A stretch of 64,000 nt of DNA from Asterochloris sp. CNOR1 (taxonomy: Eukaryota > Chlorophyta > Trebouxiophyceae > Trebouxiales > Trebouxiaceae). Position 1 is the first letter of the stretch, and every line of letters begins with the position of its first letter. The notes below the pieces were generated by a model that ran no database searches, was not told the DNA's origin, and worked only from the letters and a program-made list of their open reading frames with translations. Position numbers and translations under genes: made by a program. The stretch is taken from assembly GCA_963969365.1 (NCBI GenBank), contig OZ017762.1, forward strand, positions 1,612,001 to 1,676,000, read 5' to 3'. Shown here piece after piece: positions 1-60,762 of this stretch.

Positions 1-20
1 GGGGCATTGTATCGCATCTG

Positions 21-195
21 GCCTGCACGAGGAGAGGGCCCTGCTGATGTGCAGCCTTCACTCCAGTCTCAGCTGAGCAGATCAGCCCCATTGAGCGACC
101 TTGTGGACCCTGATCAAAGTCCTGAAGCTGCGTTTCCCGCCCACTGCTTGCAGGAGGGGAGTGGTTGCTGTTGTGTGGGCTGCTCCCGGCTTCAT
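21..195 (+). repeat. Two decayed copies of a CEP76 exon start in the preceding intron
   Basis: The true exon begins at 243 after cctgcag with gaggagagagccctgctg. Similar stretches occur at about 21-52 (gcctgcacgaggagagggcc) and 145-195 (tgcttgcaggaggggagtgg, then ttgtgtgggctgctcc). Each contains the acceptor and the first 30-50 bases of the exon but then loses the reading frame. Confidence 0.7.
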
Positions 196-242
196 TTCAG
201 CTTGCCGCTGCCCAGTGTTCACTGCCCTTCCCCTGCCTGCAG

Positions 243-2167
243 GAGGAGAGAGCCCTGCTGCTGTGTGGCCTGCTCCTGGGGTTTGGGCTGGATGCATGGG
301 TCTGCTGCGGCACGAGCGAGCGCGGCGGGCACATGTGGGTGCTGACACGGTCTGCCAGGAACAATGCAACCTTCTGGGAGCCTGTCACAGGTCAGTGTGC
401 CGTGTGTCAGGTCATGCCTGCTCCTAGACTGATAAAAGTTGGTCTGTGTGGGATGAAGGCAGCCTTTCAGGGCCTTTCGTCATGTGTATGTGGGTATGGC
501 AGCAGCAGGGCCGAGGATGTGCATGCCAACTGGTTGATGCCTCGGCTGCGCGCACAGCACTGCACCATGCCCATGCTCCATGCCTGCACAGCAACAGCTG
601 GCCCAAAGCATCTGGCTCCACCTCACGTGTGCCAGTGCCGATGCCTGGGCTCTGTGTTCAAGCCTCCAGGACCAGCCCTGAAGCCAATTGCTTTGCACGT
701 GTGGGTAGCTGGTGATGCATACCAAGAGGCATTACTTGTCTGTGTAAAATAATTTTTGTTAAGCCTGAACTTTCTGCAGGCCAGCGATGCGTTTTGTTAT
801 TGAAACTTCTGAACTTCTGCCTGCAGGGCAGTGATGCATTCTGTTGCTATAACCTCTGCACTTCTGCCTGCAGGGCAGCGATACAGCCCAGGGTCCCCTG
901 GCCAGCCCAAATCGTGCCAGTGCCGCCGCCTGGGCTCCGTGTTCCAGCACCGGCGCGTCCTGGCCAACTGCCAGCGTGACGACAGTGTACTATCAGTGTG
1001 CTACAATTTTGAGGACAGCTCCCTCTGGAAGGAGCTGACTGTACAATCGCAGGATGTGTGTGGGCCCCCCTGGGTCCGATTTGACCTTCAGGTGGGGTGA
1101 CCCAACATTCTGCAGGTGCAGGCTGTGGGCTGAAGAGTTGCAGGCAGTTTGTGAGGGCCACAATGCGACCATGACATCGGCTTGGTCTTGGGTGGTGACA
1201 ATCAGCATTCCCAGGTTGTGAGTAGCGTTGCAGAGTGTGGACATCTTTGGGGCTGAGCTGTATGTTGGGGAGGAACTCAACACATGGCTTTCAACTGCAG
1301 ATGCTCCCACTGGATATTCCTGTGGCCGAGCACAGGCTAGAGGCAGACCTTCGAAAGTCGCTGACCGAGCACCGAGCGGAGGTTCTGGGCATTCCAGCGA
1401 CGCAGTGGGACGAGGGACTGGCCTTCCTGCTCATGCCAGCCCTGGCCTCATACGAAGCTGAGGCTGTCACAGGGCAGCCGGCGGCTGGGACGGAGGACTT
1501 TCAGCAGAGCATCAAGCGCAGCACGCCGGCAGGGTCAACATTCAAGGGTGTGCCTCAGCACCACAGGTGCGGTTATCATGACGTGCTGCCCATTCTCTGG
1601 GGTGAGGCTGAGAGCTCTCACCCTCTCACTCAAGCAGCAAATGCAGCACGCCTGCAGACCACCGCTCAAGGTTGTGCCCCAGCACTACAAGTGCGTCCAG
1701 AGGGTGGTCAAAGCATCAATCGCAGTATGCTGGTTCCAACATCGAAGGGGCTGCCTGCGCTGCACCACAGCATCTTGAGGGGTTGCATTGACTTGATGAC
1801 AGGTACATGCCGGCAGCCATTGTTGCCAGAAGGGTCGCCCCAGCACCAAAGGTGTGCTTTAAGTCAAGAGCTGGGATTGCATGAAATGAAAGGGAGGCCT
1901 CCTATAGGTTGGCCTTGATCCTGCTGGTGGCTGACAGGACATAACTCTTGCAGGGCTTCCTTAACGACTGTCTCTCATTGCTGCAGGTCGCTAGCCCCGC
2001 AACGCATCCTGCAGGCAATGCTCCGGGAGCAGGCCATCAAGGATATGCTGGTCACTGATATATCAGATGCCACCTTTGCGTTGCGCGCGAAGATCATCCA
2101 ATTCCCAGAGGGCATAGCGTCAGTGTGGACAATGCTGGCAGTTCGTTGCAATCGTACCACATTGTAG
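243..2167 (+). CDS. CEP76: CEP76-like centrosomal/ciliary protein, 3' part
   Basis: C-terminal part of a CEP76 homologue; the 5' exons lie before the window. CEP76 is a centriole/ciliary transition-zone protein with C2 and transglutaminase-like domains. Exons I support: 243-390, 874-1091, 1301-1566 and 1987-2167, all with matching phases. Exon 1 reads GFGLDAWVCCGT and then TFWEPVTG, the transglutaminase-like core. Exon 2 has LGSVFQHRRVLANCQ. Exon 3 has WDEGLAFLLMPALASYE and TPAGSTFKGVP. Exon 4 ends in FPEGIASVWTML, like the CEP76 terminus; the stop is TAG at 2165-2167. The match to my memory of animal CEP76 is collinear over all four exons, so identity is firm, while exact splice sites are inferred. 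A CEP76 gene suggests that the alga makes, or descends from makers of, centrioles or flagella. Confidence 0.85.
621..668 (+). repeat. Decayed copy of an internal piece of the next CEP76 exon
   Basis: The stretch tgccagtgccgatgcctggg and its continuation encode CQCRCLGSVF. This matches CQCRRLGSVF in the true exon at about 914-945, roughly 295 bases downstream. The copy lies in the intron and has no acceptor immediately before it. Confidence 0.75.
770..880 (+). repeat. 48-bp tandem copies of an acceptor and exon start (CEP76)
   Basis: The string ctgcaggccagcgatgc occurs near 774, ctgcagggcagtgatgc near 821, and the true acceptor ctgcagggcagcgatac near 869. The spacing is about 48 bases. Three successive potential 3' splice sites therefore precede this exon. 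Confidence 0.75.
1655..1857 (+). repeat. Copies of a CEP76 exon end with its donor
   Basis: The true exon ends at 1566 with ttcaagggtgtgcctcagca and ccacag, then gtgcgg. Similar strings follow in the intron at about 1664-1695 (ctcaaggttgtgccccagca), about 1745-1775 (tcgaaggggctgcctgcgct), and about 1828-1857 (agggtcgccccagcaccaaa, then ggtgtg). They become less similar with distance. Confidence 0.65.
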
Positions 2168-2351
2168 TTTTCTTCCAGTGTTGAAGGCCTGGCGCCACCT
2201 TGTCTTCCCAAACAGGATAGCACCCCTCTCACTCAAGGCACAGTCAAGCGCTTGACTTCTGAGAAAGCATCAATATATGTCAATGTCCAGATCTGTGAAC
2301 TGCTCACACGTCACAGTAACAATGCTGAAACCCAAAACAATGTTGCATCTG

Positions 2352-21834: not shown

Positions 21835-29496
<7,662 letters not shown>

Positions 29497-32519: not shown

Positions 32520-35500
32520 TCATGGGTTGAATCTGGACAAGGCTTGCCAATCTGGCGGGGGCAGTGCATGCAGTAATGCTTGGAGAGTTGCTATGATTTC
32601 CCGCGTCCCCGGTCTCATTTCGGGGTCTTTGTGGCAGCAGTTGTGCCACAACTCCACAACCTCTGCAGGTGCTTCCTGGGGGACCCTGTAGCACAAGCGA
32701 AGGTGCTTCTAAGAACAAGTCTCCGAATCTACAATGAAGGACAGGCATGCCAGCTAGAAGCATTGCCAAACCATTGCAGTTGAGGCTTGACAGGCGCCAG
32801 AACATGTGGAGACTTGCATAGGCGTGGCATCTTGCACTGGCAGCCCTCCAAACTCAGCATATCTTGACAGGACTGCGGCATTCTACATGAGGAGATTGGG
32901 CAAGGCTTGTTTGACTTTACGGTCTCACACGCTCAGCAAGGTGGGTGCTCACCAGATCTGCCTTAATCTGCCTCGCTGAGGAGGCTCCCCTGTTATTATC
33001 TCGTGAAGGGTGACACCAAATGAGTAGATGTCTGCCTTTACACTCACGCTCTCACCCATCATGATCTGCAGGGCAATTCGCACACAAGCGTGAAGGACAG
33101 CACCCACAGCAGGCAACACCAGACCCAAAGCGGCCTTGCGGGCAAGATGTTGGTCCATGATGCTTGTGGCCACAGGTGTGGCCGCCGGCATGCCCTATGA
33201 CCGCCGGCAAAAGCATGGTGATGCTCATTGGCCCACATCACAATATATAGCACAGCAACCAGACTGAGCTGGCTGACACCATTCAAGCGTCAACCACAAG
33301 CAGGCAGCACACATCAGGCAGTGATGAGACAGGCCTGTTGTAATGCTGCGTGAGGTGGGGACGTACTACCCCAGAGAAACATGCAGGGCAGCAATTGTCG
33401 GCATGCCGTGCTGAAGGCTGCAAAATTTTGGTCTGCTGTGACCACAAGCACATGGCACAAGTCAGGTGGAGGGCACCTTGAGGCAGACATGCGACCTCAG
33501 ATGAAGATTGTACAGGCCCACCTCAGGGGCACAGTAGGCCCAAGTTCCAGGGGAGTTGTGGTGTGACAGGTGCGTCTTGGTGAGGGCACATGACAGACCC
33601 ACATCGCCTGCATAGCGAGAATGAGCACAAGTGAGCCGGGCTTCCGAGGGAGTCGTGGTGTGACAGGTGCGTCTTGGTGAGGGCACATGACAACCCATAC
33701 TGCCTGCGCACTTTGAGTCGAACACGTGATTCGCGCATGTGATGTGAAATGATTACATGCATGAGAAGCAGCGAGGCCTCTGACTTGGAGCCTTTAGGAC
33801 GGACGTATGCTGCAGCCTGCAAATCCGTGGAGAGGCCCGCCCACTCACATTGCCATGCTGGTCAAGCAGGACACCCGTCAAACCTATGCAGGCCAGTGGC
33901 CACTAGCCAGTAGCCCTGCAGAGGCGGCAGCTCACCAAGCTTGGCATTGCCGTGCTGATCCAACAGGACATTGCCAGTCTTCAGGTCCAGGTGCATGATG
34001 GGGTGGGGCTGCATGTTGTGCAGGTAGTGCAGCCCTGCAGCAGTGCAGTCGACAGGATCAGGCTGGACATGGCCCAGATGAACATAACCATGAAATTGAT
34101 GTGTGCAAGTAGTGCCACAGCAAACAGCGCCACAGCAAACAGAGTGTTGCTGCGTGTGGCTTGATTTTCCTTTACACTTCATTATGTGCAGGTAGGTAGT
34201 GCAAAGATTTTGCTTTGACAAGGCTGCATATGGAGGCTGTTCCTGGTGATGTGGTGTCAGGCAGGGCAGTGATGACACTGCAGCTAATCAGCCTGCCGAG
34301 TGCACTGGCTACTGACATGGTTTGGCTTCAGCTGCATGGGCGACCTCTGAGCTTGTGCCTGAAGCATTGCTGCAGCACAACCTGAACTGGCAGCAGTGCA
34401 TATTGCAGCCGATTACCTGAGGCAATCTCGAGTGCCACATGCTTGCCCCTGCAGGTGAGCACCATGATCTCGCAATTGGATGTGTTTCAGCACCAGCACA
34501 GGCAAGGTGCAGATAAAGCAGCAATTGCCAATCACGGTCAGGCTTCTCTGGCTCTGATTCCTCCTAGAAGCAGACCGCAGCGCTCACTTGTTGTACCAGC
34601 TGAATAGGGCACTGCTCTCCGGCCTGAGCAGGGCCCTCCCCAGGTCGCCACCCTCCATGAGCTGCAGCGCAGGGTCACAAGCACTGCTCAGTCCCGGCAG
34701 CTACCTGTTGTGGCAGAGCTTGCAAGCAGCTGGACTGGGCTTCTGCATGCATAGAGTGGACTCAACAGAGACTAGTTGCCAGGCTGACCTGTAGTCAACA
34801 AGGGCATGCCATATGCTCACGCTCCATAAGTATCTTTATCTGCAGACAGCGCAAGGGGAGCTTCCGTGAGGGCATGCAGCTCACCTCTGTAATCAGCATC
34901 ACTTCATCGCCTGCGACAGCCACGCCGTAGAACTGCAGGATGTTGCGGTGTCTGCAGGGCAGGGTGTGGCAGTGAGCATCTGATGAGCCATGTGGCACAG
35001 TCCTTGCTGGCTTCCCACACAAAGCACATCTCGCCGCTGACAGCCCCACTGCGCCTGCAGAAGTTGGCTCCGCCGCAGCACCACCTGGAGAGGACATGGA
35101 ATGGAGGCATGGAGTATCACTGCATGACGCCATGCCACCTGTCTGTGCAGCAGCAGCAGTGCAGGACATGTTCCCTTGACAGCCTCACACCTCAGCACCA
35201 CACATGCCTATTGCACGGGACCATGCGCACCCTTACAGCCTGGACACCTCCAGCTCAGTTGTCATGTCAAACCCGGCACCATGGGGAGGGGCGCCCTTGT
35301 ACAGAGTCACACAGAGCTGCTTGATACATGCACCACCTTGAGCCCACGGCAGCATTTAAAGGAGAAAAGTTTTGCAACAGACAGCCCCGCACATGTGCAC
35401 AGCATGATTCAGAGGGGTTCGCAGTGTCTCTTGCCACAACTGCATATTGCCACAGAGCTGTAGGCAACCGGCAGGCAGCCCCACACACCTGCACAGCTTG

Positions 35501-38500
35501 AGCACCTCCAGCTCGTTTGAGATGTCAACTCTGCCCTCGAGGAATGCGCCCTTGAACCGCTTGACGGCCACAGGGTGCACTCCGTCCCAGACGCCACGCA
35601 TGTGCACAGCATGATTCAGAGGGGTTCGCAGTGTCTCTTGCCACAACTGCATATTGCCACAGAGCTGTAGGCAACCGGCAGGCAGCCCCACACACCTGCA
35701 CAGCTTGAGCACCTCCAGCTCATTTGAGATGTCAACTCTGCCCTCGAGGAATGCGCCCTTGAACCGCTTGACGGCCACAGGGTGCACTCCGTCCCAGACG
35801 CCACGAAACACATCTCCAAAGGCTCCAGATCTGAAGAAGCAAACCACTGCTTCAACGTGAAGCTGAGGCTGTCAGACTAGCAGCCCGCCAGCAGACCCTA
35901 GCAACGGTCACCCACAAGTTTTAAGAATGAGCGATGGCAGACAGCCTTGTCAACCTTCTCAGAAAATTCTCTGACGCCTTGGGACTTCAATGACATAGGC
36001 CTCAGCGGGTGGTGCCCTCTGCCCAGCACTGAGGACTTGCATGCAGCAGACTGCACTGCAGCCCAGCAAGCCGGACAAAGCCTTGCTGTGACACGTCATT
36101 TCAGCAACCTCGGAAGCCTGCTGCAGGGCAGCAACAGTATGCAGGGCAGCGGTCACACAAACAGGCTGCAGCTCATGGCAGGCCAGAGCACAGTGAGGGA
36201 ACAGGCCATTAGCCGCTCAGACAAGCTGCAGCCCAGACACCCACCCTAGGCGCCACTCGCTGCCGTCGGGGCGGCGGCTGAGCTGGATGCGGTCCAGAGG
36301 AATGGTGCCTGCGCTGGAGGCCAAGGCCTGCATGCCAGCCCTGCACACATTCGGAGCAGGCTGTAAGCAGCTCTCATTGTTGGAACCACAAGAGGTAATG
36401 GACAGGTGCCTGCACTGTTTGCCAGGGTGTGCATGACTGCCCAACAGGCACTCCTGAAGGGTTGTGATAAGCCCTTGGTTCTAGAGCATGCGCTTCACAT
36501 GTGGTGTTCTGCCGGTGTGACTGGCCTGCAGGTATGAGAAGGTTTGTCAAAAGGACTTGCAGAGGCCACTTCTGTGGCCAGCTTAGGTCTCGACAGCAGA
36601 GACAGGCCTGCATGGCAGCCCTGCAGGCAGCGTGGGAAGAGAACCCAGATTGGAGTGCATGATAAGATGTGTGCTGGGGCAAACAGGCATGCGGCCTACA
36701 GGCCAGCTTTGCGTACAGCCAGCCTCTGGCGGGTGATGGCCGCCATTCACACACAGAGCAGCAGCCTGTATCCTTACCTTGCTCCAGAGCTGTTGCTTGC
36801 GACAAGCGCAGGCTGCTGGGGCGCCCCAACCGAGACGCAGGTCCCAGAGCTGTTTGAGACAGCTGTCCCAGCCCAGTCTGTCAAGCCTGGGCTGTTGATG
36901 TGCCTCTCGTGCAGCTCCATGGGCAAGCCTGCGCGCAGGGCAAGGTTCACAGTTAATCGAGTTGTCAAAGCCCTGTGAGGACAAGCGCAGAGTGCAGCGC
37001 TGGTTGGCAAATTTCTGGGCCTCAGGACGCCTTGTGGGCAGGCATAAGGTCTCGTTATGCACCACAACATGCACTCAACTAACCTCAGTTTGCCACAGGG
37101 CCACATCCTCAAGTGCCGAGTGGAGATCTGCTGTTGCACAGAGGGCCAAGGCAAGTGCAGTTGCTGGCGGCACCATTTGTGCGCAGGACTGGCACCAGCC
37201 AGACACAGCTCAAGCAACTAATCGGGGGGATCAGCATGCCAAACAACCATCACAAGCGCGCACTCGTGACGGCCAGACTGGACATCATCAGGTGGTCGGT
37301 GGGGTTGTTGCTGTTGCTGTATTGGGCAGGGTCCAGCATCTTGGTGCCCTTGGTGTAATTCAAGCGTCCCCTCCGCCGCACATACAGAACAAGCAAAGTT
37401 GCCAGCAGACACAACAGCACGACGCCGCCTATCACAATTCCTGCAGGAAGGCAAAGAGTCAGGCCGCAGCTGCAGTGCAGCAACAGGGACACGCTGCCCG
37501 GAAAGGCTGCCAGTTATGGTGGTGTACACTGCAATGCCTGTGAAGGCTGTTGCAGAGGGGTTGACTTCATGGCAGAGGTGCAGCTCTGTGATGTGCACTG
37601 GTCTCCTGGTGAGCTGCATATTGCTTATGCCAGCCCATTGGCAGACACCTGCATGAGCAGCCTGCCTGCCAGCGCACATGGAACGCAGCCAACACAAGCT
37701 CCCTGCATCGTGTGACAACCATGCGTGCGCAGGATGACTTGCCTGCGACCGCCCCAGCATCTGGTGTGGAGCTATGCCTCAACTGCAAACCTGCATGAGC
37801 AGCGGTAAGATGATGAGGGAACTTCAGAGGGAAGGTGACTTCTCAGCAAAACAAGACGCACTGGATTGGTGGCAGCCAGGCAGCCTTTTCTCGCCACACT
37901 GTGCAGTTGACACTGGAAACTCAGGTCTTACCTGCATCAGAGCAGTCCACTTGCATCTGGCTGCAGTTGAACTGTACAGAGTCAAATGCATTTCCGGAGT
38001 TCCCTGCAGCACAGAGGAGACACAGGTCAGAGAAAGGGCACCAGGCAAGCATATCCATCTGACTCTGATGGCCAGGGTTGCCTTGATGCAGCCACACACT
38101 CACACCTCCAAGTTGCCCACTCAGAGCTTCCCAACCCTTCTGAGGACTCCGTAGTTGCCAGCAGCCAGCCAGGTCAACTGCGCGAAATCTGCTGCCACCC
38201 ATGCCACACCTCAACCCGCCCCAAGCATGCAGGTGGCAGCCGACGCCCCCATCCAGGAGGTACCTGAGATGCCTGAGATGTATTGCCCGGGGAGACAGTT
38301 AGCAACATCGCTGAGGCCTCCAAGAGGAAGGCCAGGGGTCCCGGCAGTCAGGCTGAGCAGCTCGCGAGTAAAGGTTGTCACCCCTGAAAAGATAGTGTAC
38401 ACTCCAGCGCTGGTGGTGTTGAAGGCGACGCTGTAGATGTTCAGGCCTGCAGCAGGGCAGCATGGTTGGGCTCAGATGGCCCTGGCGTGCTGCGACAGTA

Positions 38501-40775: not shown

Positions 40776-43700
40776 GCGCCAGTCAGATCCGCATGTGCTG
40801 ATGGCTCTCCTTGAGAAGGTGCAGCCTGGGCTTAAGCAGGCCCCAGGGATGCTGATTCCCCTCATGGACGCCACAAGCCATGTGAGTCTGCCTGGACAGG
40901 GTGCTGCTCATGCAAAGAAGGTCATGGTACAAGCTGCAGGAATGGTTGCATCGAAACCTGCTGCACGCAAGGTGCATTCAGGGCCGCAGGTGCGCCTGCT
41001 GCCCGCAGCTGTGCTGTGACAATGAAGCAAGCTGCGCACAATGTGACAACTGCAGGCGTGTGGCCCTGATTTCTCTCACTGCCAGTCCAGCCTAGGCACC
41101 GTGGGCCTGGCTTTTCTGCAGGGGTGCTTGACACGACAGTCAATGCCTGATGCTTGGCAAGCTGACAATCCGTCAGTGGCTGCAGGCGGCGGAGCACGTG
41201 CAGGCAGCTGCAGCCAGTACAGTGCTGACAGCAGCCACATTGCCTGTCGGCCTCACACAGCCGATGGCAGTCGTCGCAACAGCTGGCAGGCAGTTGAGAG
41301 GATGGCTGGACGGGCTGTGGGTCTCTGCAACCCTCTCTGCCACCCTGTGAGACCAAGGGCGTGCTCGTCTTTGACAATCAGCGTGCTGTGGCATGGTCTG
41401 GTGCTAGGTGTTTATAACACCTGATGCCACAAGCATGGGCAGGTCATGGCTGCGGTGCAAGCAAGTCTGTACGCTCAGGAATGGGCTGGTAAGTTGGCTG
41501 CCACATGGCCAGGGTGGGGCCTCAGAGTCCACCCTACATAAGCAAGTGCCACAGAATCACCTTGGAACAGCACCTGGAAACAAGCTGTGCACCTGCCGCT
41601 CACCTGCAGATGGAGCTTTGCTGCATTGACAAGCCCATGCGCAGCCGGTCTGGTGTGCCACTCTTACTCCATGAGTTTCCTGCGCATATGTGCTTAAGGG
41701 CAGGCACGCCCTGCCAGAGCAGACCCAGAGGCGCCTGCATGTTTGCAGCAATGTCTGCTTTGCTGAACATATGTTCAGCTGCCTTGGCACATGCTCTTGT
41801 ACCGCGCCAGGAGACTGCACCTATTGTGTTGTGTACAGGAGTTTTGCCGGAGCAACTGCCCAGCTGCAGGTCGCTAGGGACATGGCAGTAGACGATTCAC
41901 CTGCCCTGCTGTGGGACAACTCCCACAAGGCTGCTGTGTGTGTGCAGGTACTTTGCAGCCGTAATGACCGCTCAGCTGCACGCAGTCGTCGCTAGGGACG
42001 TGGCAGTGGAGGGCCTGCCAGCCCTACTGCTGGAACAGGCTCAGGAGCTGCATGTGGTGGCTCAGACGCTGCGATACATGATGGCAGGCAGCGCACCGGG
42101 ACTGCTGCTGAAAGCCTGGCTGCTCCTGGCACAGGTGGGTTGACGTGCTGCAAGGCTCTGAATGGACAACATGACGAAGCTCAGCATGTGGGGTTTGCTG
42201 TTGGCAGCCAAAGGCTGCTGTTGGCTCAGGTGAGGTGCTGCAATGTGCACGCGGTGATGCACAGGCTGAGGCTTGTGCTGGCGTGTAGTACCCCTCAACT
42301 GCTGCTGACAGTCTGGTTGCTCTGGGCATACATGGGGTGGTGTGCTGAGACGTGCTGATGCCCTGGGAGCTTGCATCTTGATGTGAGAAGGGCGTGGCTG
42401 CTCCCTGCCATGGTGAGGTGTCGCAGTGCATAGCTTGCATGTTGCATCCCGGCCACCGCGCTGCACGGCGTCCAGTAGCCCGCCTGGATGACTGCTGACA
42501 TTGCAGCTGCTAGGCACGCTCTGTTGGTTGCACCCGCTGCTGCGCTGTCTGATGGCAGGCAGTGCACAGGTGCTGTATGGCTGCTAGAGTGAGCTGCTGC
42601 ACGGTGCAGGTGCAGAAACGGGCTCTGTATCTGGTGACACAAACGCTGTGATGCATATCGGCATGCAGCACACCAGCAAGACTGCTGCTGACGGCATGGC
42701 CACTGCGCAGGTGAAGTGGTGTGCAGGCAGGCTCTGCTTGCACTGAGGGCTTCGCGCAGTGCTCAAACTTGGGGACTGCTCTTAGCAGGCTAAAGTGGGC
42801 GTGGATGCTCCTTTCTCTGGAATGTGCTGTTGGGCGCACAATGACACCAGCAGTCCTTGGCCGCTGTTATGCACTGTTGGCAGCACACCAGGACTGCTGC
42901 TGATGATGTGGCTGCTTTACCACTGGTCAGCTGCAGCATTGCCAAGCCTTCGGTGCAGGCTCATGGTGTATGCTGTATGATGGTGCCCAGCAGCCCAGGA
43001 CTGCTGGTGTCACTGAGACTGCTCCTGTCACAGGTGGGCTGCTGAGGTCCCATGCCACACCTTTGAGGGTGCAAACTTGTCAGACTGAAGTGCGATTGCT
43101 CTGTCTCCAGGTGGTCGCAGTGGCTTTTGGGTTCTTGGGGTTCCTGTTTGCCCCACGCCTGACCCACGCCTTTGCAGCCCACCTGCGATTGCTCTTGCCT
43201 GCAGGTGGTCGCAGTGGCCTTTGGGTTCTTGGGGTTCCTGGTCGCCCCCAGCCTGACCCACGCCTTTGCAGCCCACCTGGACCTTAGCGTGGTGAAGCAG
43301 CTCGACAGATTGCTGGCGCCCACCGCAGCAGCACCAGGCGGTGCTGCCGGCGGTGCATTCGCACTGCAGAGAGCGCCTGCAGGGCTGTGCTCGACCTGGG
43401 GCCTGGAGGTGAGTTTTATTTCTCTGGCTCTGTGTGCTGGTGTCCATCAGGGTGGCTGCTGGCGGTGGTAGGGTCCAAACAAGCAACTGCTGTGACAGTA
43501 GGCAGGATGCAGGCTGCGCATGTGCCCTGCAGCAAGCACCTGCGGGGCTGTGCTTGGCCCAACTTCAACAGGTGGGGCCATCTAAGATACATCAAGCTGG
43601 TCATAGCTTGAGTTTCCTGTCTTGAGTCCATCTAACAGTTGATGTGCGGCCTAAGTCAGCAGCAGCCAAGGTGCTGCATGGAGCCAGAGCAGTCATCTTG

Positions 43701-46942: not shown

Positions 46943-49008
46943 GGCAGCAGGTCACAAGCAATGTCTGGAGCAACTCATGGGCTCAGCCGAGCCCCCTTGT
47001 AGGATTGTGGCTGAGGTGCCAGCAATTTTGCAGACGGCATGAAGCAGCAGCACCTGCGAGGCCCTTTTTGAATTTTGTGATGAATGCGAGGCAACATGTA
47101 TCGCACCCATGGTGTATCAGCGGTAGTATAGCTTGCCAAGCCTGTCAGCTGGCGGCTTGACTCTGACCAAGGCATGACCTGCGAAGTTTGCAGTATACCT
47201 AGCTAAGCTCAGCCAGTGTTGTCAGAAAAGTCGCAATCACAAGACACAACAAAACACAAAAAGGGGGGTTTCCACTGCCAATCATTACCTCCCCCACGTG
47301 TATGGCCTTATAGAGGGCGAAGCATTGTTGTGGCACATTGCCACTCATGTCTTTTTTTGTTTCATGCTTTGGATTGAGTGTAGCTGGTGCATATGAACTG
47401 CTGCGAACTGTGCACAAAACTTTGCAGTAGCAAGTGCATCCAAGTTGAAAGTCACCGGCATGTTGGTGAACACAGAACATCCTGAATCTCCTTAGCTGGG
47501 GGATGAAGCAGTCATCATTTGAAAGGACAATGCTCTACGCTTTGTTGGTAGCATGTCAATCTACCAGATCAAGGTGCACCACAGGGTTGGAACTGCCCAC
47601 AGAAACCAAAGTGAGTCCTGAGAGGAGCATGACGCACCCATTTATCCTGTGTGCCACAGCCGCCCTGCGAGTGGTGTGATTATGAGATATGACCAGGCTT
47701 TCATGCGAGTTCAAAGGAATGACATGACTTCAACAAAATGTCAATGAGTACCAAGCAAAGGTCTTCTCTCATGATAGCATGAGGCATGCTCTAGAACTGG
47801 AGCATGCCGAACAAAGCTGTGGCTGTGATGAATCTGTGTTGCTACCTGAAGCCCAACAGAGTGGCAGGGCTGACAGATTCAAGGGGGAGGAGGGGCACTG
47901 AGCTGCCTGCAAAACACATGCAATGCTCTCATGATAGCTGCGTCCATCAGCTAAAGCTCAATCAGCTGGTGGGGCACCGTTGGCCTTCAAGTGGTGCGTC
48001 GGCACAGAGAGCTGCCCTTCAATGGTGCGTCGGCACAGAGAGCTGCCCTTCAGATGGTGTGTCGGCACAGAGAGCTGGCCTTCAGATGGTGCGTCGGCAC
48101 AGAGAGCTGCGCTGCATGCTAGGGGCGTAGACGGGAGTACCTGGCAGCACCTGCACAGGCAGACACCAGATGTGGGGTTTCAAGGGCACATGCAGCAAGC
48201 TGACTGCTGAAGCCAGGATGAAATACACAAACAAGCGGCGTGCATGCCCAAGTTGCTGCAAGAGGCAGAGCACCCCAGAAGGAAGTGGTGTGCAGCCTGA
48301 ACATGTGTACCCGGTGCTGCCATTGCCACCAAGGCGCACTTGCACTGTACTGTCTGATTGTCATTGACAGGGCTGTCCCAAACCATGATATGATATGGCA
48401 TGCAACAATGACAAACCTGGTCCTCCAGGGAGCGCCTCAGACCGGATCTAGGGCACAGACTGCGGCAGGCCACCCGCACAGCCCCCACCACGCCTCTTTG
48501 CGCAGCCTTGTGGCCAGGCGTCAGCTGCAGGTGACGCATGGCAGGTGTCAGCGAAGCAGGTGCGCAGCAGCACGAGGGCTCTGCGCTGAGGTGGGGGCCT
48601 GCAAGAGTCTGATGCAGTCTCTGCTTTGCAGGCAGGAGGAGGGGCCTGTGCTAACCTGCTGGCTTTTCAGATCTTAGTGGTGCAGCAATCCATTGCCACA
48701 GCAAGCAGAGCGGGCCGCAGGCGCAACTCCCATCCAGGCCCATACAGAGCAGGGCCTGCTGTTGGCGGAATGTCCATGACTCTCCTCAAGCGCGACGTGC
48801 AACACGAACTGCCACACGCTTGGCGATGAGGACCACTGACCTCTCCACACTCTGGGAGGCTGTCCAGGCGTGGCCTGAGCGTGCCCAATGGAGCACTGAC
48901 TGACGAGTCCCCTGCGTGGCTGTGCTCAGCTTTAACCCCTTGCAGTGCTGACGCCCCTTGTGCCAAAGCCTCTCGTGCTGCTGCAGCAGCTCTTCCTGCA
49001 GCAGACCG
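46943..49008. other. Gene-poor interval
   Basis: No gene resolved. It contains a minisatellite (47981-48112) and scattered minus-strand coding-looking pieces, such as ELLQQHERLWHKG near 48950-49010. That piece could be a further exon of the twin-LOV gene, but I cannot join it in phase. The stretch 47180-47800 is AT-richer and shows no open frame of interest. Confidence 0.5.
47981..48112. repeat. Minisatellite, about 32-bp unit, four copies
   Basis: Four copies of ggtgcgtcggcacagagagc plus tgcccttcaga-like spacer start near 47993, 48024, 48057 and 48088. Differences between copies are single bases. No spacer variation as in CRISPR. Confidence 0.92.
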
Positions 49009-52000
49009 TCAAAGGCTGTGATTACCCAGGACACGCTGGGTGGTGAGCAGAGGAACAGTCACAGAAGGGAAGGCTCTGGCTGCGATCAACTCCCCTAGTG
49101 GGCTGCCCAACCAGACAGTGCTGCATTCAGCAGTGGTGGCGAAACATGTACTTGAGGAGCTCAGACCAGGCCCTTTGCCCCCAACACCGCAAGCCAGGGC
49201 AGGCAGGGAGGCCAGTCCACGTCGCAAGGGGACATTTGAACCGAGTGCCCTGCCTTGGCGCACTTCTGGGCGCACCGCCCACACCATGCGGCCAAGTCCG
49301 CACCTGGACCAGGCTCCGAGCTCTGCTCTCCCTGGCCGGCTCGAAGCGCCCTGATGTGGCCTGGCTGCCTCTCCACAGCAGCGCGTGGCTCAGGGCCGAA
49401 CCTGGTCAGCGTGTGGCTGCTGGTGGGTGCCTTGGCAGGGGGTGGCACTCGAGTCACATCCAGCTGGATGCCCGCCAGGAACACCACCTGCGGCCAGCAT
49501 AGCAGCATAAAACCTAGACCCCAGCATTCCTGACAGGAGCCACGTGCAGGCTGCCCCAGAAGAGCACCCCGTCACAGCAGAAACAGGCTCATCAGACAAC
49601 CACTGACAGCACCAGCCAGCACATGTCTGATGATGAACAGTCACTGCCGCATAAGCCCTGCCCCTTGTGTCGCAGTCCCTGACATGCCTGGCCGGCCGCA
49701 CTCCAGGCTGCGATGTGCAGGCTGATTCCAGAAAGGTCCTGCCATTGCAGAAGTTCAGCAAGGGCTAAAGAGAATACGTTGCCCACACCTCTAATCCAAC
49801 AGAGTCCACACACAGAAGGATTGCAACCCCACCTGCATGGCAGAGTTCCCCAAACAGGCGCCTGCAGGCTGCCTCGGAGGGGGCAGTGTCATTTCTGACA
49901 TGCAGTGTCGTTTCTGACAAGCAGCGCTGGCCAGCAAGAGTTTTCTCTGCAAACTCCACGTCCACTGGCCTCCTGCCGCAGCCCCAGATTACTCCAGATT
50001 TTCACCTTTTCAGGGCAGCCCCAGGTTTGTCCAGGCCTGGATTCAGTGCCTGTTGAGATAAGCAGCCACCGAAACTGCTCAAAACCTGCATGACAATGCC
50101 CCAACCTCACCTGTCCTGCAGCATTTCGGACAGGTGCGACGTGCAAGCTGTTCCAGAAGGGGGTCCCATCGTAGCAGAAGTTCAGCAGGCGCACTGTGAC
50201 TGCACGTGGAGGCTCAGCGGCCAGGGCGTCTCGCAGACGCTGCACCTCTTCTGTGTCTGTGCCCTCGCCCTGCAGGAAGCGGCAGTTCCTGCCCAGCACC
50301 TGGTCCCTGCAGGTGCAGCAAGGTTTGGGGTGTCCTTCTGATAAGGCGTGGAGACGATGGTTGAAAAGCAGGTCTGATGAGATATTGTGCCCTCCCCCTG
50401 CAGGAAGCGGCAGTTCCTGCCCAGCACCAGGTCCCTGTGCGGGCAGCAAGGCACTGGGTGTGCTTGTACTCAAGCATGGAGACTTGATGATCAAGCAAGC
50501 TCACAGGAAGACTGTGCCCTGCCCGTGCCAGAAATAACAACTCCAGTCTGCCACCTGGTCCCTGCGGGAGTGGCAAGGCATCAGTCATGCTTGCAGTGAA
50601 GCATAAGGATGAATTTGTGGTTGAGCAGGCTCAGTGGTAAGGTGCGCCCTGCTCCTGCAGGCAGCAGAAGGGCCTGCCAAGGGGCTGGTGTTGTGGGGGG
50701 GCAGAAAGGATTTCTATCTGAATGAGGTACAGCCTGGGCACTCGTCTCTGCTCCTGCATCAACAGACACCCAACACCAGGGCAGGAAGGCTCATGAAGCA
50801 GTGCAAGACAGACCTGGCTGCTAGCCAGGTCACAGGAGGACCCAGTCGGCCGAAATGCTTCATTTCTTAGCAGCCTTGACGAAAAGCGCCCAAGGAAGCG
50901 GCAGTCACCTTTGCCCCGAAACCCACAGGCTGCTGAAGGCAACAGCAGGAAGGGTCACCTAGGGTATCCTGTCAGGTCCAGAAAGCCCTGGCTGGCGTGC
51001 ACAATGGGACAATCTGGCTGGCTGGGGTCCGACAGCACAAAGGACTGCTGCAGCTTCAGCAGGGGGGCCAGGAGGGAGACTGGGAGAGCTGGACTGGACA
51101 GACCGCCGCTGCTGCGCCCTGAGATGCCTGATGAGGACCTGAACAGCTCTGCGCTGGAGCGCCCTGCACAGGCAAGGCAGGCCTGCCACTCAGAAAGGGC
51201 GTGAAAAAGAGAAAGATGCATGTAAAGTCGGGGGCCCACAATGGATGGGAATGGGGCTTGATGGACAGGAGCACTGTGTGCTGGATGAGGACAGCCTGGA
51301 GATGCGAGATGAGGGCCATATCGGCCGAGCACTGGCGCCCTGCAGGTCAAGGAAACATGCCACTCAAAACAAGACACATTGGACAGAGGGCCTGAGGCCA
51401 TTTGAACAGCCCTGCGCTGGAGCATTCTGCAGGCAAATTGAGCATGGCACTGAGAATGCATGCGCAGAAAGTACCCCAGTCGCCTCAACTACAGATGCAG
51501 GCGACTGCAACCTGTAAGTCAAACTGTAGCACTCCCCAGAACCCGCCCTATAGGCAGAGGGCGAGATGCAGCGGAGTGGGAACATTCTCAGAAGCAGCCT
51601 CCGATATTGTGGCCTGCCAAAACAAAAAAAAACCTTGGCTGCCGCAAGTTGCCTGGGCAGCACTGGAAGCCGCCGCCCAGCAGCAGGAAGTAGCTTCTGC
51701 ACAGGGCAGTGTGTGCGTTGCAACACACCATGATTCACGTTGCTCACTGTCCCAGCAATTGAGTGCTCGTGTCCTGCAATGCCTGTTGCTGGTTGCACAT
51801 GCACAGCCCATGCAGGGACATGTACCGCATCAACACACACCCATCGACCAACTGCGATAACTTTTCCAGCAGCTGAGGGCTCCCTGCGGCACCACAGCCT
51901 TCTCTGGGCTGCCTTGCTGTGCAGCAGCAGGCAAGCAAGTGAGGCTGTTGCTGACCAGTACCCTGCATTGGCAGCCCTAGCCATGCAGAGGGCTGTCGAG

Positions 52001-53763: not shown

Positions 53764-55143
53764 GACTGAGGCTGGCCTGTTCGCCCCCCAGTGACAGGAA
53801 CCAGTCCTTCCCAGGTGGCTGCTGGCCAGAAGTTGGCAGCTGCTTCGCAGTCTGAAGCTGCCTGCAGCCAAAGAGACAGCCATGGGTAAGGCTCTGCCCT
53901 GCATGCAGCATGCTGCAGTCAGCTGTGCTGTGTCCCACTGAACTTGTTGCAGCAGGAAAAATCTCCTTCCTGACGGTCGCAAGTTGCCCCCGCTGGTGGC
54001 TGCCAGCCTCTGCCAACGCCTGCACTTCAGAAGCCAGCAGGTGCTCAGTCCTGGGCTGAAAGTACCTGCAGCTGACTGTGGATGTATATTGCAAGGGTTT
54101 TCTGCATGAAGGATGCTGCATGGATCTGCTGCAGCTGCCAGCCCTGCATCAACCAGAGAGCGGTGACTGCGGCTGATGGCAGCCCCTGCTAGCTAAGCGA
54201 TGGCCCGAACCAGCAGCTGACACCTGAAAGTCAGCAGCTGCGCTATTGGCTTCTCGAGAGCCTGCAGAATTGCGACAAAGCATGGCTGAGGCGCTCCTTT
54301 GAGGGTTGGAATTATGATGAGCAATATTACAGCTGATGTACCTGCAGCAAACCAAGGAGGTACAATTGAGGCTGGATCCAGCCCAAGGATGCTGTTTTTC
54401 CCAGGGTGCTACAGCAATTGCTCTCCTGAGCCAGAAGCACGGTGGTGCGCTGAGCTGGAAGCACGCTGCGTTGAGCACTGAAGCAGCGAGATGCAGGCAG
54501 CCTGGGCACGACGTGCGGCAACATATGATTGCCTGTTGCAGCTTCAGCCTACTGCATGATACTGGTCAAATGAGCAGTGCTGTACAAGGACGGAATCTTT
54601 CCAGGCTCATGCAGCACACCTGCTAGGTGTGTTTTTGTGGACGCAAGTTCCTGTGCAGCAAGCAAGACCATTTGCAGATAAGTTTGGATGCAAAGTCTGC
54701 TGCAGCTTCCAGTGTCAGCACGCATGCAATGCCAGCTGTGTGCCAGGGTCAAGCACACATGTACTTTTGGGCACCTTCACAGCATGGAGACGGCTGCGGC
54801 TGGGTGTTGCAGCCAGCCTGTACTGCTGTCCTGCCCGTCTACGCGCGGACTTGACGTCCTGTTCCTGGATATCTCCTTCCGTGATGACTTGAACTTACGG
54901 CACACGAGCAGTCGCAGCTGTGTGTGAACAAGTGGCCCTCAACACCTGAGATTGTGGCCCTCCACAGACTTTTGGGATGCAGCATCTTCTCTCTTTCTTG
55001 CGTGGGGACCAGCTGGCCACTCTCAGCACAGATGAGCAGCCCTTGGCCTCTGCCAAAATTGCCGGCTGGCATGCTTTGTACCGTTTGATGAGCATAAATA
55101 GACACTTGTAGCTTGCCAAGTTAGAGCAGGGTCTTCCCAGGCC
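53764..55143. other. Divergent interval between the LOV gene and UPF3
   Basis: No gene resolved. It must hold the 5' regions of the minus-strand LOV gene and the plus-strand UPF3 gene, and possibly a 5' LOV exon (a minus-strand open stretch, PTSGQQPPGKDWFLSLGG, lies near 53790-53850). Confidence 0.4.
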
Positions 55144-58100
55144 ATGGCAGTGCAGAAGGAGGCAGCTGCGCGGACCAAGGTGGTGCTGCGCGGCCTGCCC
55201 CCTACTGCGGACGCAGCAGAGGTCCAGGCTGCCATTGATGCGCTGTGCGCTGGCAAGTACGACTGGTTCACTTTTGTGCCAGGCAAAGTCAGGTGTGCCC
55301 CTGCAGCTGCACAGCACAAGGCTTGTGCAAGGGGTGGCACCTTTGCATGCACTGTTGTCATCTGTGAAGGCAGCATAGCACGCGGCCAGGGACAGCTGCA
55401 GGGACTTTCAAACAGTCGTGCAGTCCTGGAGCAGCCTGGAGTGGTTACTTAGGAAGGATCCCACGCCAGCCAGTGCAAGCATCATTCTTGGCCAAGGCAC
55501 TGTTTAGCTGCAGCTCGTTTGCGCTGTATTACATGACCGCGACAGTCAAGCAGTTGTGCCAGAGCGAGCCACAGGCACAACATCTTGCCTCATGCCCCCT
55601 TGCAGAGGCGAACAAGCTCTGGAAGTGTGCCTAACCCCTCTCGCATAAGTGCCAGTCCATCTCTGTGTCTTGATTTCTCCTCAGCAGGCAGGCCTCACCC
55701 ACACATCTCTGGTCCACCGCCCGCCTGCTTGCCTGCAGCAACAAGCGCACAGTGCCAGCCCACGCCTTTTTAAACTTCACAAGCGCAGCAGACGTGCTGG
55801 CCTTCACTGTGCGTATGGCTGGGCGCTCCTTTGGGGGCGAGGGGGCCGCCAAGGCCAGTCAGTGGCGCTGCACAGTGGAGTATGCGCCCCATCAGAGGGT
55901 GCCGCGGGCTGTGGGCAAGCCTGACAACAGGGAGGGCACGCTGGACAAGGGTGAGGAGTGAGTGGGCTTGTGATGTTGGACGATTTTGCATGAGCCAGTG
56001 AGTGTCTGTGTGTGGCACTGACTGCCTGCCTTGACCTCAGGCGGGGGTGGCAATGGCATGAGCTAGTGAGTGTCTGTGTGTCATGCTGACCGCCTGCCTT
56101 GAGCTCAGGCAGGTGTCGGAACGCATGAGCTGAAGCAGGTCTGGTGGGGCATGCAACAGAAGGGGCCCTGTGTGCCATGTGCTACGGACAAGCTGCACAA
56201 ACGAGCTGCACCTTGACAGAGGGGCTGTATTGATGGAGGTGTATGGCCTTCAGGTTGCAGCTGGACTACAGAGAGGATTTACAGCCTGGACCCTCCTGTG
56301 GCCGTGTGTTCCCAAATTGCTCTTTGTTCACTAGTGGGTGCTGCCTGCAGATGCCGACTTCCTGGCCTTCAAGGAGCAGCTGGAGAAGGGCCCTGAGCCG
56401 CTGCCCAGCGCAGAGGCCCAACTGGAGAGGCAGGAGGCAGAGGCCCGAGAGAGGCAGGCTGCAGGTGAGCATCAAGGGAGCAGGGGGTGCTGTGTAAGCC
56501 AGATTCTGCAGACTCCGTGGGAGTGGTATAGCAGGCTAACAGGCAGGCAGCCCCAGGCAGACATGAGGGACAGTAAAACATTGTTATTACTCCGCAGCAG
56601 CCCAGGTGAAGAAGCAGAAGGCAGAGGCGCCGGACAGGAAAGCTGAAGGTGAGCATGCAGGGAGCAGCAGCGTGTCAATGCCATTCACAGTCTGCGCAGG
56701 GGTGTTGAGGCAAGCTGATAGGCAGGCAGACATGAAACAGATCAGAAACAACCTCCAGGCAGCAGCACAGGTGGAGGAGAGGCAGGCAGAGGCACTGGAC
56801 AGGAAGGCTGAAGGTGAGCATGGGGGGAGGAAGTCGAAGGTATGTTGTACATGCGTGTTTGGGCCAGGCAAGACTGCTTATCAAGGTGCAACATGCATGA
56901 GGCTGAAGAGGCAGGTCTGTAGGGCAGGTCTGCAGGCGAAGGTGAACTGAATACTGGGCCTGATCATGGGCTACTGTGCAGCGGCCCAGAGTCCAGCTTC
57001 GGTGGCGTTACAGGAGGCAGAGACTGGGAGAGGTCGGATGCAGGTCAGCATCAGGTTTGGTTTAAAGGACCCATCTGTAGATGACCGCTGCTGTTTGAGC
57101 GGCAGATGTAGGCTGGACAGGCTGAAGCAATGTGAGAGGCAGGGGTCTTGGCAGGAGTTGCCGCTGAGCCAGCGCTTAGCTCTCGGTTTCCAGGGCTGCT
57201 GCCACAGCTGCTCTGTTCTGCGACTCTGAGTGGCAGTCGCACCCTCTGCTGGCTTGAAGGCAGCGCTCATGCTTGCTGGGTATGAGCACGGCATGTCTTC
57301 GTGTGCAGAAGTTGGCCATACAGTCCAAAGATCTACTCAAAATCAGTTGTCTTCGTCGGCTCTGATGATGTTGTCAGGCCTGGCATGCGTTTGCTGACTG
57401 ACAGGCTCACCCCTTCACATGTGGCCCCTGCCCTCGCTGAGGAGCACTGTTCCCTCTGCAGGCCAGGAGGCAGCTCCCACCAAGGTCACCACGCCGCTCA
57501 TGCGATTCCTGACCGAGAAGCACACCCCCAAAACCCCCAAGCGGACTCCCAGCAAAAAGGTGAGCACAAGTGAGGACCGCCAGGGGCAGATGTATGCTGC
57601 TTGCTGGCCCAGGCATGGCATCCAAAGAACTGAGATTTCTGTGACAGTAATCTTGAATTTGCATGTGACTCTGCGCCCAAAGAGGCCACCCTACTACAGC
57701 CCGCCGCTGTGGTACTGTGCGCTGTTGCATGCTTGCTCAGTGGTATTGAACTCAGTGCCATGAGGGCAACTGCATGTCATGCACTATGAATGGGATGCTG
57801 CGTCGCCTGGATGTCCCATGCTCATAACAAAGTGGTGTTGAGCGCTGAACAAAATGGCATCTGCTGTGTCGCTTGACCACTGAGTGCCCAGCACCAGTAG
57901 AGAGGGCGGCCCTCAGCAGGGCGCCAGACGTTGCTATGCAGACAGGCTACTTCAGACGCTGGCTGCCTGCTGTGTGTCAACCTTCCCTTTCATGTACGGG
58001 ACGCCTGTATGAACCGTTGACGCGGCCAGCACTGTGAGCACTGCTCCTGCTGGCACCGTCCCTGGCAGACCAGTGTATGTGCCAGCATGCACCCCACATA

Positions 58101-60762
58101 CAGGCTTGCCTTCACCTGCAACCCTCGATTAGCATGCACTGCGGGCACACGCGTTCATTGCAGGGCCCAGCCACTCATTCCTTGTTGTACATGCAGTGCA
58201 GCCAGCGTCGCCACCCAGCACGCTGTAGTCCTGGCTGGTCTGGTCTTGTATGACAGCAGGCATGCACTGATCATGCAGGCATTGCATGTCCTGCAGGGTT
58301 GCACAGCAGCAAGCCAGAGCCTGGGCGCCCAGTCACCCCAGCCAGCTGTTGCAGGGAGGCTGCAGGCACTTGCTCAGCCACATCACGCGTCAGCAGGGCT
58401 GGGTACCTCCTGTGGTGCCAATCAAGTGGCTGTGAACCTCATGTTCAGCAGACCTGTCCCCTGCAGGCCTCTGCACGCCCGAGCGAGTCGAACAGCAACA
58501 AAGCAGAGGCCGGACGCACTGTGGTGCTGGTCAAGGCGCGGCCACCAAGTGGGGGTGGTGGCAACTGTGGCAAGGGGTCAGCTGGAAAGGCTGGCAAGGG
58601 GCCAGCCAGTGATGGGGCAGCTGGGGAAGCAGAGGTCATTGAAGGTGCTCCCCGCAAGGTGAGCACCCTCTGGGCAGATGTTGTAGCCATGCAAGATGTC
58701 TAACACTTTTGGCGGGGCCCAACTTGTGAGGGAGCAAAGCAGGGTCAGCAGCAGGGGCGCTGCCTGCGAGGTAAGTCTGGGCGCGGCTGCAGCTCGAGCT
58801 GGTGTGTCACAGAATAGACCAAATTGCGCCGCACAGCTGGTCAAGTGCACCTATACTTGTGCCTGCATGGCAGGTGTCCGGGCTGTGACTGCCGTGCTTT
58901 AAGCTTCCTCGCTGCACATCCTCTGCGCACATCCCTTCAACTCTGCATTCTTCATTCTATCCGTGCCAGCAACTGGTCTGCTGCAGTGCTTGAGCTGCTG
59001 CAGACTGGCCCCTGTCTCATGCAGTCAGGCCGTGACCCAGACCTGGCTTTCCAGATGTCACATGCTTCAGTTTTGTCTCCTTGCGATTGAGTCAGGCAGC
59101 GGCATGCCGATGTGTTGCCTTGGTGCCTGCAGGTGCTGTATCGTCCTGTGCCCATCAGCAACACCAAGCAGGAAGGCAGGGGGAAAGGGAAACAGGCGCG
59201 TGCCACCAGGGACCAGCCTCAGCAGCAGCAGAGCAACGCGCCCGAGGCCGTGGATGCGCCCCCTGCCAAGCCCGTCAAGCTGCTGAGGAAGGCAAATTCC
59301 ACCAACGCACAGCAGGAGAATGGCATCTCAAGCGCCCCCAGGCTGCAGGCTGAGGCAGCATCTCAGGTGGGCTGCACTTCTTGCCGCATGATCTCAAGCG
59401 CCCCCAAGCTGCAGGCCAAGGCAGCATCTCAGGTGGGCTTCAGTTCTTGCCGTGTGGCCCATGTTGGTGAGGATGACAGCAGTGCACCACAGCAGTCCAG
59501 CGCATCCAGCGCAGCCAGAGTCCAGACATGTCAGGTGGGGTCCATGTGCGTCATGCTGGCAGCCTCAAACAGCTGTGGGGGCTGGCATGGGTCATGGCAG
59601 CACACTGTCCTGGTGGTGCCTTCTGTGCTGTGCCGTTGGGCGGCATGCAATGCCTGATGGGCAGCCAGCGGGCGGAAACACATGTACTCCCGTGCCCGGC
59701 CCCCATGAGCGATACGGTGTTTGGCAAGCTTCAGGACCAGCAATGCACCAGCAGCATGTGCCCACACTGGCTTCCAACCTACTGCGTTGTGAAATGTGCA
59801 GAGGTGTGCACTTGCCTGAGGGGGTCTTGAGCAACCATGCTGTCTGCATTCCCCCTGGTCCCTCGAGATTCTCAGCAATGCAATCATCTGACTGAAGGAT
59901 GCCTGGATGTTACTGGGTCGACTTTGCGGTCATGCCCTCTCCCGACTAGCTGCCTGCAGGATGCCCCTGGCCGGCCCTGCACTCGCTCCCTTCCCGCAAG
60001 ATGCCTGCAGGCTGCCCATGGCCGGCCCTGCACTCGCTCCCCCTCCTCGGATGCCTGCGTCGCTGTTCACCCTGCACTCGCTGCCTGCAGGATGCGCCTC
60101 CTGGCAAGCTGCCCAAGCCAGCCATGGGCTCACTCTGCATGTACTGCCTGTAGGATGCACCTCCTGGCAAGCCGCCCAAGCCAGCCAAGGGCCCCAAAGT
60201 GCGCCCAGGGTTCCAGCACTACGTGCCAGGTGCCAAGCGGCGCCAGCAGCCATCTGAGGCCGGCGATGAGGGCAGTCAGGGAGGCAGCAGCTCCGCTCTC
60301 AAAGAGGTACGTGGCAGTGGCCGTGGCTGACAGGGCTGCTGCCTTACCCAAGCAACTTGCTGCCCATCGACACCAGCTTTCCACCTGAATGACTCTGCCA
60401 CCTTGCTGCATGAGGAAAGTGTACACAGCAGAAGCGAGTCATACTCTGTAGTCATGCTCTGCCTCCAGGCTACAGGCACAGCAGGGGCCAGCTGCTGAAG
60501 TTGTGCTGCCATCAGCAAGGGTAGCGACTGCGGTGGGGCACAGGCGGCGAAGCTTGGTATCCTGGCTTATGGTAGTTCACTATGCCTTCTCTCGGTGCAG
60601 GCTCAGGCAGCAAGCAGCGCTGCTGCAAGAGGCATTGAGGGTGGTGACCACAGTGGAACGCAGGCAGCTGGCGGTGGGAGCGGCAGTGGCAAGCAGTGGG
60701 GGGGCCATGAGCGCAGCAAGAACAAGCGCAGCCAAAATGGCTACTCTGGAAATGTGCCGTGA
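55144..60762 (+). CDS. UPF3: UPF3, regulator of nonsense transcripts 3
   Basis: The Smg-4/UPF3 RRM-like domain is encoded by exons 55144-55292 (KVVLRGLPPTADAAEVQAA, YDWFTFVPGK), 55739-55950 (PAHAFLNFTSAADVLAF, CTVEYAPHQRVP) and 56351-56464 (DADFLAFKEQLEKGPEPLP). These are followed by short charged exons 56598-56648 and 56763-56813, then 57462-57559 (TPLMRFLTEKHTPKTPKR), 58467-58658 (RTVVLVKARPPSGGGG), 59133-59366 (LYRPVPISNTKQEG), 60154-60306 (GPKVRPGFQHYVPGAKRRQ) and 60601-60762. Phases match except around 56982-57461, where one short exon is still missing. UPF3 bridges the exon-junction complex and UPF2 in nonsense-mediated decay. Domain order and the basic C-terminal part fit the family. 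Confidence 0.88.
56590..56813 (+). repeat. Tandemly duplicated 51-base UPF3 exons, both usable
   Basis: Exons 56598-56648 (AAQVKKQKAEAPDRKAE) and 56763-56813 (AAQVEERQAEALDRKAE) are both 51 bases long, have the same phase and have acceptor and donor intact. A third related stretch (AAQSPASVALQEAE) lies at 56982-57043. Confidence 0.85.
59325..59440 (+). repeat. 66-bp in-frame copy of the UPF3 exon 59133 end
   Basis: atctcaagcgcccccaggct at 59325 recurs as atctcaagcgcccccaagct at 59391, both ending in gcatctcaggtgggct. The offset is 66 bases (22 codons) and the intervening sequence is open, so the exon may end at either donor. Confidence 0.93.
59951..60190 (+). repeat. Series of copies of the UPF3 exon 60154 start
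   Basis: The true start gatgcacctcctggcaagcc follows a tag acceptor at 60151-60153. Copies follow gcag acceptors at 60091 (gatgcgcctcctggcaagct, 63 bases upstream) and, more decayed, near 60010 and 59959 (both with ggccggccctgcactcgctc). The copy at 60091 is open until the tag of the true acceptor. Confidence 0.92.

Follow-up and report, generated by a model that had tools for sequence, protein, structure and literature searches.

Exon edges copied into adjacent introns in an Asterochloris genome, with an old pulse of small tandem duplications as a possible source

Genes and duplicated exon borders in the window

The window, that is, the whole 64,000-nucleotide stretch of DNA analysed here (C17:1612001-1676000 in a genome of 56.4 Mb and 21 contigs), comes from the green alga Asterochloris sp. 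CNOR1. It contains a RIO2 kinase gene on the forward strand (21835-27469), for which nine exons were found by protein homology and joined: exons 1-5 at 21835-21918, 21994-22040, 22178-22261, 22608-22719 and 23666-23778, and exons 6-9 at 24548-24695, 25488-25598, 26664-26770 and 27397-27469, with the 3' end of the gene probably lying beyond these. The predicted protein is collinear with RIO2 of jgi/Astpho2 (which we take to be Asterochloris glomerata under its JGI genome code), Trebouxia and Myrmecia; jgi/Astpho2 is the best match (94% by BLASTP with 94% of the query covered, and 99% in the multiple alignment), followed by Trebouxia at 82%. Several introns of this gene hold copies of the neighbouring exon edge in the same orientation. 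Decayed copies of the ends of exon 4 (23012-23057, lag 335) and exon 5 (23828-23870, lag 95) lie downstream of these exons and have lost the donor GT. Upstream of exon 6 is a copy of the acceptor end and exon start with the AG kept (24284-24326, lag 257), and downstream of it, after a 13-nt spacer, the last 45 nt of the exon recur at 93% identity (24709-24753, lag 58) in a copy that halts at the exon end and in which the GT is absent. Exon 7 is preceded by three head-to-tail 77-bp units of acceptor and exon start (25298-25525, lags 77 and 154), the third of which contains the true exon start (25488), and is followed by a copy of its end that has lost the GT (25726-25785, lag 163). A 16-bp minisatellite of about eight copies occupies 23083-23213 in intron 4.

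The first gene of the window is CEP76-like, with peptidase-like and C-terminal domains of this centrosomal protein at 126-1918, in what is probably a lichen alga. Between the two CEP76 stretches, a 47-bp unit that carries an acceptor-like CTGCAG is present in 2.3 copies on the forward strand (774-882), and an exon of our ab initio gene model starts within the last unit. On the reverse strand, a 207-bp tandem duplication that is 99% identical takes in an exon end, its donor and the intron start (35387-35805); the sequence reads by eye like a protein kinase, and Pfam gave no kinase in the open reading frame (ORF) itself and a sub-threshold kinase match in a neighbouring one. Tandem duplications on the forward strand also lie over an ab initio acceptor (94 bp, 43091-43279) and an ab initio donor (66 bp, 59325-59452, with about 42 exon and 24 intron nucleotides by eye), and a duplication with a lag of 128 bp lies at an ab initio exon border on the reverse strand (50258-50483). 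The translation of this 128-bp unit (50240-50520, reverse strand) presumably resembles a LOV photoreceptor motif, and a Pfam search of the ORF that holds it found nothing. One further duplication, with a lag of 97 bp and 94% identity over 51 bp (33545-33692), is intron-intron according to the ab initio model. A 32-bp array of four units lies in an ab initio intergenic stretch (47984-48110), and three similar exon-like units at 56409-56830 (lags 165, 184 and 349), each closing with a GTGAGCAT donor that is intact, could represent coding exons that are genuinely repeated and not decoys. Overall, Pfam matches among ten ORFs of the window comprised two to CEP76 above the cut-off and three below it (kinase, CC142_N and SNRNP27), and five ORFs were without a match. 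Elsewhere in the genome, at C19:10167-10916, a nearly full kinase domain (profile positions 3-263 of 263) lies in a single open frame of 713 amino acids; it is unlike the exon-by-exon kinase matches elsewhere among those listed and could be a foreign or intronless gene.

At a score of at least 18 and lags of 10-2000 bp the window holds 84 direct repeats, 80 of them with a lag below 500, whereas an equal lag span at 8-10 kb gave none and only two inverted repeats were found within 2 kb. Twenty random 10-kb stretches, all on contigs C1-C4, contained 98 direct repeats, two inverted repeats and none at 4-5 kb, so the short-lag repeats are not confined to the window. Per base, repeat density in the window is about 2.6 times that of the random stretches, and the window is therefore not typical in this respect. 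A first, sequence-only reading of the window had described its introns as filled with copies; this was too strong, since the detected duplicates make up 3.9% of the window, a figure obtained with a low-complexity filter by which long repeats are wrongly discarded.

Exon edges and their flanking introns

A small gene finder was trained on the window and the random stretches. The gene model used recovered seven of the nine RIO2 exons exactly, and retraining drifted to many tiny exons. By this model, 23 of 65 repeats in the window held a splice border compared to 18.7 expected (P 0.15), as did 27 of 75 in the random stretches compared to 18.6 expected (P 0.025), and the weakness of the association is probably due to false mini-exons in the models. 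Homology-anchored exons were used in place of the ab initio models for the border test: eight TCP1/CCT genes, three kinesins and RIO2, with exons fixed by Pfam matches (80 exons and 68 introns of mean length 616 bp), which with four more kinesins makes 16 genes. Fifteen of these (all but RIO2) were picked blind to repeats; 15 of the 16 belong to two families, and their exon borders are predicted.

Among the 49 local repeat pairs in the anchored genes, 18 span an acceptor, with the intronic partner upstream in each, compared to 4.2 expected when positions were shifted (none of 2000 shifts reached 18). By hand count the 18 pairs sit at 14 acceptors, four at one exon of locus L029 and two at RIO2 exon 7, and so are not fully independent. 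The remaining pairs span a donor (4, with 3.6 expected from the shifts), are exon-only or lie at an edge (12, with 14.7 expected) or are intron-only (15, with 26.5 expected). Matches between different genes, a comparison with 38 times the cells, numbered one for acceptor-intron, none for donor-intron, five for exon-intron and 19 for intron-intron; scaled to the local comparison, this predicts 0.03 acceptor, 0 donor and 0.13 exon-intron pairs, where 18, 4 and 11 were observed. The predicted acceptors share a strong consensus (CTGCAG before the junction and G after it) and, like the weak ab initio enrichment, this would fit an origin of the pairs in chance or in shared splice-motif similarity. 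However, the near-zero counts between genes indicate that the acceptor pairs do not stem from the shared CTGCAG motif, queries of exon sequence alone still find copies (see below), and a divergence of 7-26% between the anchored repeat pairs is not that of an assembly error; chance, motif similarity or misassembly is almost certainly not the explanation. The between-gene counts also bear out the sequence-only reading in its claim that the copies are not a mobile or introner-like family.

We then aligned each exon edge to its own flanking intron and to intron stretches of other genes, and counted copies at p≤0.01 (counts vary by one or two per run because the decoys are randomly drawn). In 66 introns, the downstream exon start was copied in 23 and the upstream exon end in 18, compared to 0 and 3 on the wrong side and 2 of 64 and 0 of 62 for exon interiors. 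The four added kinesins, in which two borders have poor splice scores, gave starts in 3 of 14 introns and ends in 2 of 14 (controls 1, 0, 0 and 1). Thus exon borders are commoner in their own introns than in unrelated ones, as had been proposed from the window, with starts in 26 and ends in 20 of 80 introns and each control between 0 and 3. Queries restricted to exon sequence still found 19 starts and 18 ends in the 80 introns, where the controls gave 0 and 1 (wrong side), 3 of 78 and 0 of 76 (interiors), and 1 and 1 (antisense). Among the 48 introns with continuous profile coverage, RIO2 left aside, 19 starts and 11 ends were copied (12 and 10 with exon-only queries), compared to 0 and 2 on the wrong side, 2 of 48 and 0 of 45 for interiors, and 1 and 0 in antisense. 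In all 74 introns other than those of RIO2, a start copy was found in 22, an end copy in 16 and either in 35.

The signal is concentrated at the very edge. With 25-nt windows, exon starts were copied in 20 of 66 introns at -1 to +24, in 9 at +11 to +36, in 6 at +23 to +48 and in 1 at +35 to +60, and exon ends in 12 of 66 at -26 to -1, 5 at -50 to -25, 3 of 65 at -62 to -37 and 1 of 65 at -74 to -49; the signal thus fades about 50-60 nt from the exon edge, although a later start window (+59 to +84) gave 5 of 64 compared to 1.3 expected. Overall, the results confirm that short-range copying of exon edges into introns is real and reaches beyond the window. Local copying takes in exon edges and, in part, the splice sites next to them; copies of exon starts lie upstream and those of exon ends downstream, also in genes of other contigs.

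Decay, age and simulated origin of the copies

In 39 copies compared with their exons, the mismatch rates at codon positions 1, 2 and 3 were 0.163, 0.147 and 0.226, the pattern expected of a freely drifting copy beside an exon in which most changes are silent; the copies thus decay roughly as near-neutral sequence. Could the copies be kept because they work, either as splice sites (decoy or alternative) or by mimicking the exon edge in regulation? Among copies found by exon sequence alone the acceptor AG is kept in 12 of 19, and very young edge copies are few, both as such a function would have it. Against it, mismatches fall at every codon position, the donor GT is kept in only 3 of 16 such copies, and only 6 of 30 lags (hand count) are divisible by three and thus give no sign of in-frame use, and we regard functional retention as quite unlikely. 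Whole-exon tandem duplication with exclusive exons did not emerge from these data either, the interiors being copied as rarely, and the lags being as seldom multiples of three, as given above. The sequence-only reading had further held that, in the clearest arrays, similarity is highest in the copy closest to the exon, which does not hold in our measurements: neither the 18 acceptor pairs (rho 0.18) nor the 12 pairs at donors or exon ends (rho -0.22) show a correlation of lag with identity, and of the copies before RIO2 exon 7 it is, by eye, the farther one that agrees better with the exon part.

The copy of the RIO2 exon 6 end, with its spacer and its stop at the junction, is not expected from simple tandem duplication, and past -7 of the acceptor and +6 of the donor the identity of exon-anchored copies is on average about 0.3. 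Both observations would suit a process coupled to splicing, templated by RNA or working by patch repair, in which short pieces of exon ends are inserted non-tandemly. Yet the youngest duplications are simple tandem units whose exon and intron parts vary, and since decay affects both sides of the intron part, some fading there is to be expected; such insertion appears very improbable. Insertion of spliced-junction fragments was rejected by eye in two introns (one of locus L028 and RIO2 intron 6), in which the start and end copies are not adjacent.

We next considered how age relates to placement, using the window together with the random stretches (140 repeat pairs). With the ab initio models, the 12 pairs of the youngest class (identity at least 0.95) lie as if at random (border 2 compared to 2.9 expected, and intron-intron 5 compared to 4.2), and there is no border excess among these few duplications. 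Exon-exon pairs number two in the youngest class and none in the three older ones (3.1, 3.6 and 1.0 expected). From the youngest class to the oldest, exon-related and intron-intron pairs stand at 2:5, 15:12, 31:23 and 33:6, where chance gives about 4:4, 12:12, 25:22 and 21:14; the last class, below 0.80 identity, is expected at 21.4:13.6. At identities of at least 0.96, eight of ten pairs have a length-to-lag ratio of 0.84-1.21, with lags of 21-207 bp and one pair belonging to a 16-bp minisatellite, and the other two are one short repeat of locus L015 counted twice (ratio 0.60). Since length is close to lag in these eight, births look tandem; the 20 complete repeat pairs have lags of 25-207 bp. 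In the anchored genes, by comparison, only one of 34 exon-related pairs reaches an identity of 0.93, and a second stands at 0.926.

These observations suggest the following explanation, to which we give about an even chance. Tandem duplications of some 20-210 bp would strike the genome more or less uniformly, and those within exons would be purged. Duplications that span a border would survive if splicing stays with the outer site, which is the acceptor on the downstream side or the donor on the upstream side. The spare copy would then pass into the intron with no change to the mRNA, which would place copies of exon starts upstream and copies of exon ends downstream and leave interiors almost uncopied. 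As the spare copy decays neutrally beside a fixed exon, edge copies would stay legible at ages at which duplicates within introns can no longer be recognised. The majority of visible copies would stem from an older episode in which duplication was much commoner than today.

We simulated introns beside fixed exons (63-70 introns per run), letting small duplications fall uniformly and adding substitutions, indels and deletions for balance. When duplication ran steadily at 0.0012 per site per substitution, a rough estimate from the young pairs, only 3% of introns had start copies, and this rate was rejected. Raising the steady rate to 0.015 did give them in 33%, but with 2.61 intron-intron pairs per intron compared to 0.22 observed (12 times as many) and with 22% young edge copies. 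Steady targeting of borders failed as well, predicting that 39% of edge copies would have an identity of at least 0.93 (observed 1 of 34) and that interiors would be copied in 19% of introns (observed 3%). Simulated pulses were nearer to the observations. Among five such later runs, the best uniform one had a pulse, then quiet time, and units that took in no more than 45 nt of exon, the pulse and this limit being fitted after the data were seen. With a cut-off of 0.0133 and 150 decoys in the simulation, compared to 0.01 and 300 in the observed counts, it gave starts in 0.32 of introns (observed 0.35), ends in 0.33 (0.27), interiors in 0 (0.03) and a ratio of exon-related to intron-intron pairs of 1.94 (2.27). 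It misses the median lag (107 compared to 161 by hand count), the young copies (0.09 compared to 1 of 34), the donor pairs (0.16 per intron compared to 0.06) and the -1 to +24 window (0.19 compared to 0.30). When the exon limit was removed, copies went too deep into exons (simulated interiors 0.08-0.13). Limiting units to 80 bp also cured the depth, but the median lag then fell to 63-69. The 45-nt limit is imposed on the simulation rather than derived from it; possibly, longer spare exon pieces would carry splicing signals enough to compete with the true site.

A mutation process that itself prefers borders, through breaks, nicks or R-loops tied to splicing or to exon nucleosomes and acting mostly in the past, would account for the excess of acceptor-spanning pairs over shifted positions, and would suit the finding that a uniform steady rate fitted to the starts yields far more intron-intron pairs than observed. 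A pulse of this kind, with intronic duplications four times rarer and again at most 45 nt of exon, gave starts in 0.35, ends in 0.30 and interiors in 0.02, a ratio of 3.09, a median lag of 84 and a young share of 12%, and in these simulations the uniform and the fourfold border-preferring pulse fit about as well as each other. Against border preference stand the random placement of the 12 youngest duplications and the failure of steady targeting, and we regard it as rather unlikely. It is likewise doubtful that a process coupled to splicing or exon chromatin copied exon edges, and nothing but edges, into the adjacent introns of this lineage at a high rate and in one past period; if such edge copying were true, the growth of introns would be recorded in them as datable fossils.

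Known systems and intron growth

The proposed old pulse of roughly uniform duplications filtered by splicing may have had its source in DNA repair. Small tandem duplications arise from end-joining repair of staggered breaks with fill-in, according to the excerpt of Schimmel et al. 2021 (PMC8355091), and insertions in rice include partly tandem copies as well as non-tandem copies from within 200 bp of a break, according to a passage of PMC7407515 that we take to describe its reference Vaughn and Bennetzen 2014. As described in these excerpts, small tandem duplications are likewise local and arranged head to tail, with copies tens to hundreds of bp long; the repeats of the alga look head-to-tail at birth, with units of tens to hundreds of bp and no sequence common between loci. 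In contrast, the old copies of the alga are legible at exon edges in 35 of 74 introns. In the portions of PMC4974935 and PMC2891723 at hand, two routes of intron gain come close. In the potato RdRp gene (PMC4974935), a duplication across an intron-exon boundary holds intron end, acceptor and exon start, as in the alga, but yielded a new intron in one gene, whereas the alga has spare copies within existing introns of many genes. The Rogers or AGGT route of intron gain by exon duplication (PMC4974935, PMC2891723) shares with it local tandem duplication and redundant splice sites. Intron birth by AGGT was rejected: the donor border and the acceptor border of the same intron agree at a mean of 8.8 of 36 positions compared to 9.1 by chance over 83 introns, one of which reaches the 99th percentile of the null. 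Introner elements, described in an excerpt of PMC9860276 as repeated sequence in introns, resemble the repeats of the alga in their location, but the alga has no family common to loci. Among the literature matches listed, a scope with subscription papers mostly outside it, no report described exon-edge copies as a genome-wide intron feature; what is new here seems to be the scale and the exon-edge readout.

The sequence-only reading had proposed that local duplication across splice junctions lengthens introns and might seed alternative splice sites. Its copying, polarity and non-mobile character stand and its similarity gradient does not, and the lengthening would follow if duplications of the inferred pulse, passing a splicing filter with its limit of about 45 nt and perhaps born of end joining, were retained. 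The results suggest that introns grew via small local DNA duplications tolerated by splicing. How introns grow where transposons are few is an open question, and the published genome of A. glomerata, in the part of PMC6652019 consulted, has 56 Mb, nine introns per gene and only about 5% repetitive DNA. Because the constrained exon is a fixed reference, old local duplications can be counted and dated at its edges after intron-intron copies have faded. The edge test needs exon coordinates alone and can be applied to any genome, and would tell whether edge fossils are widespread in eukaryotes or confined to this lineage, and whether duplication comes in bursts.
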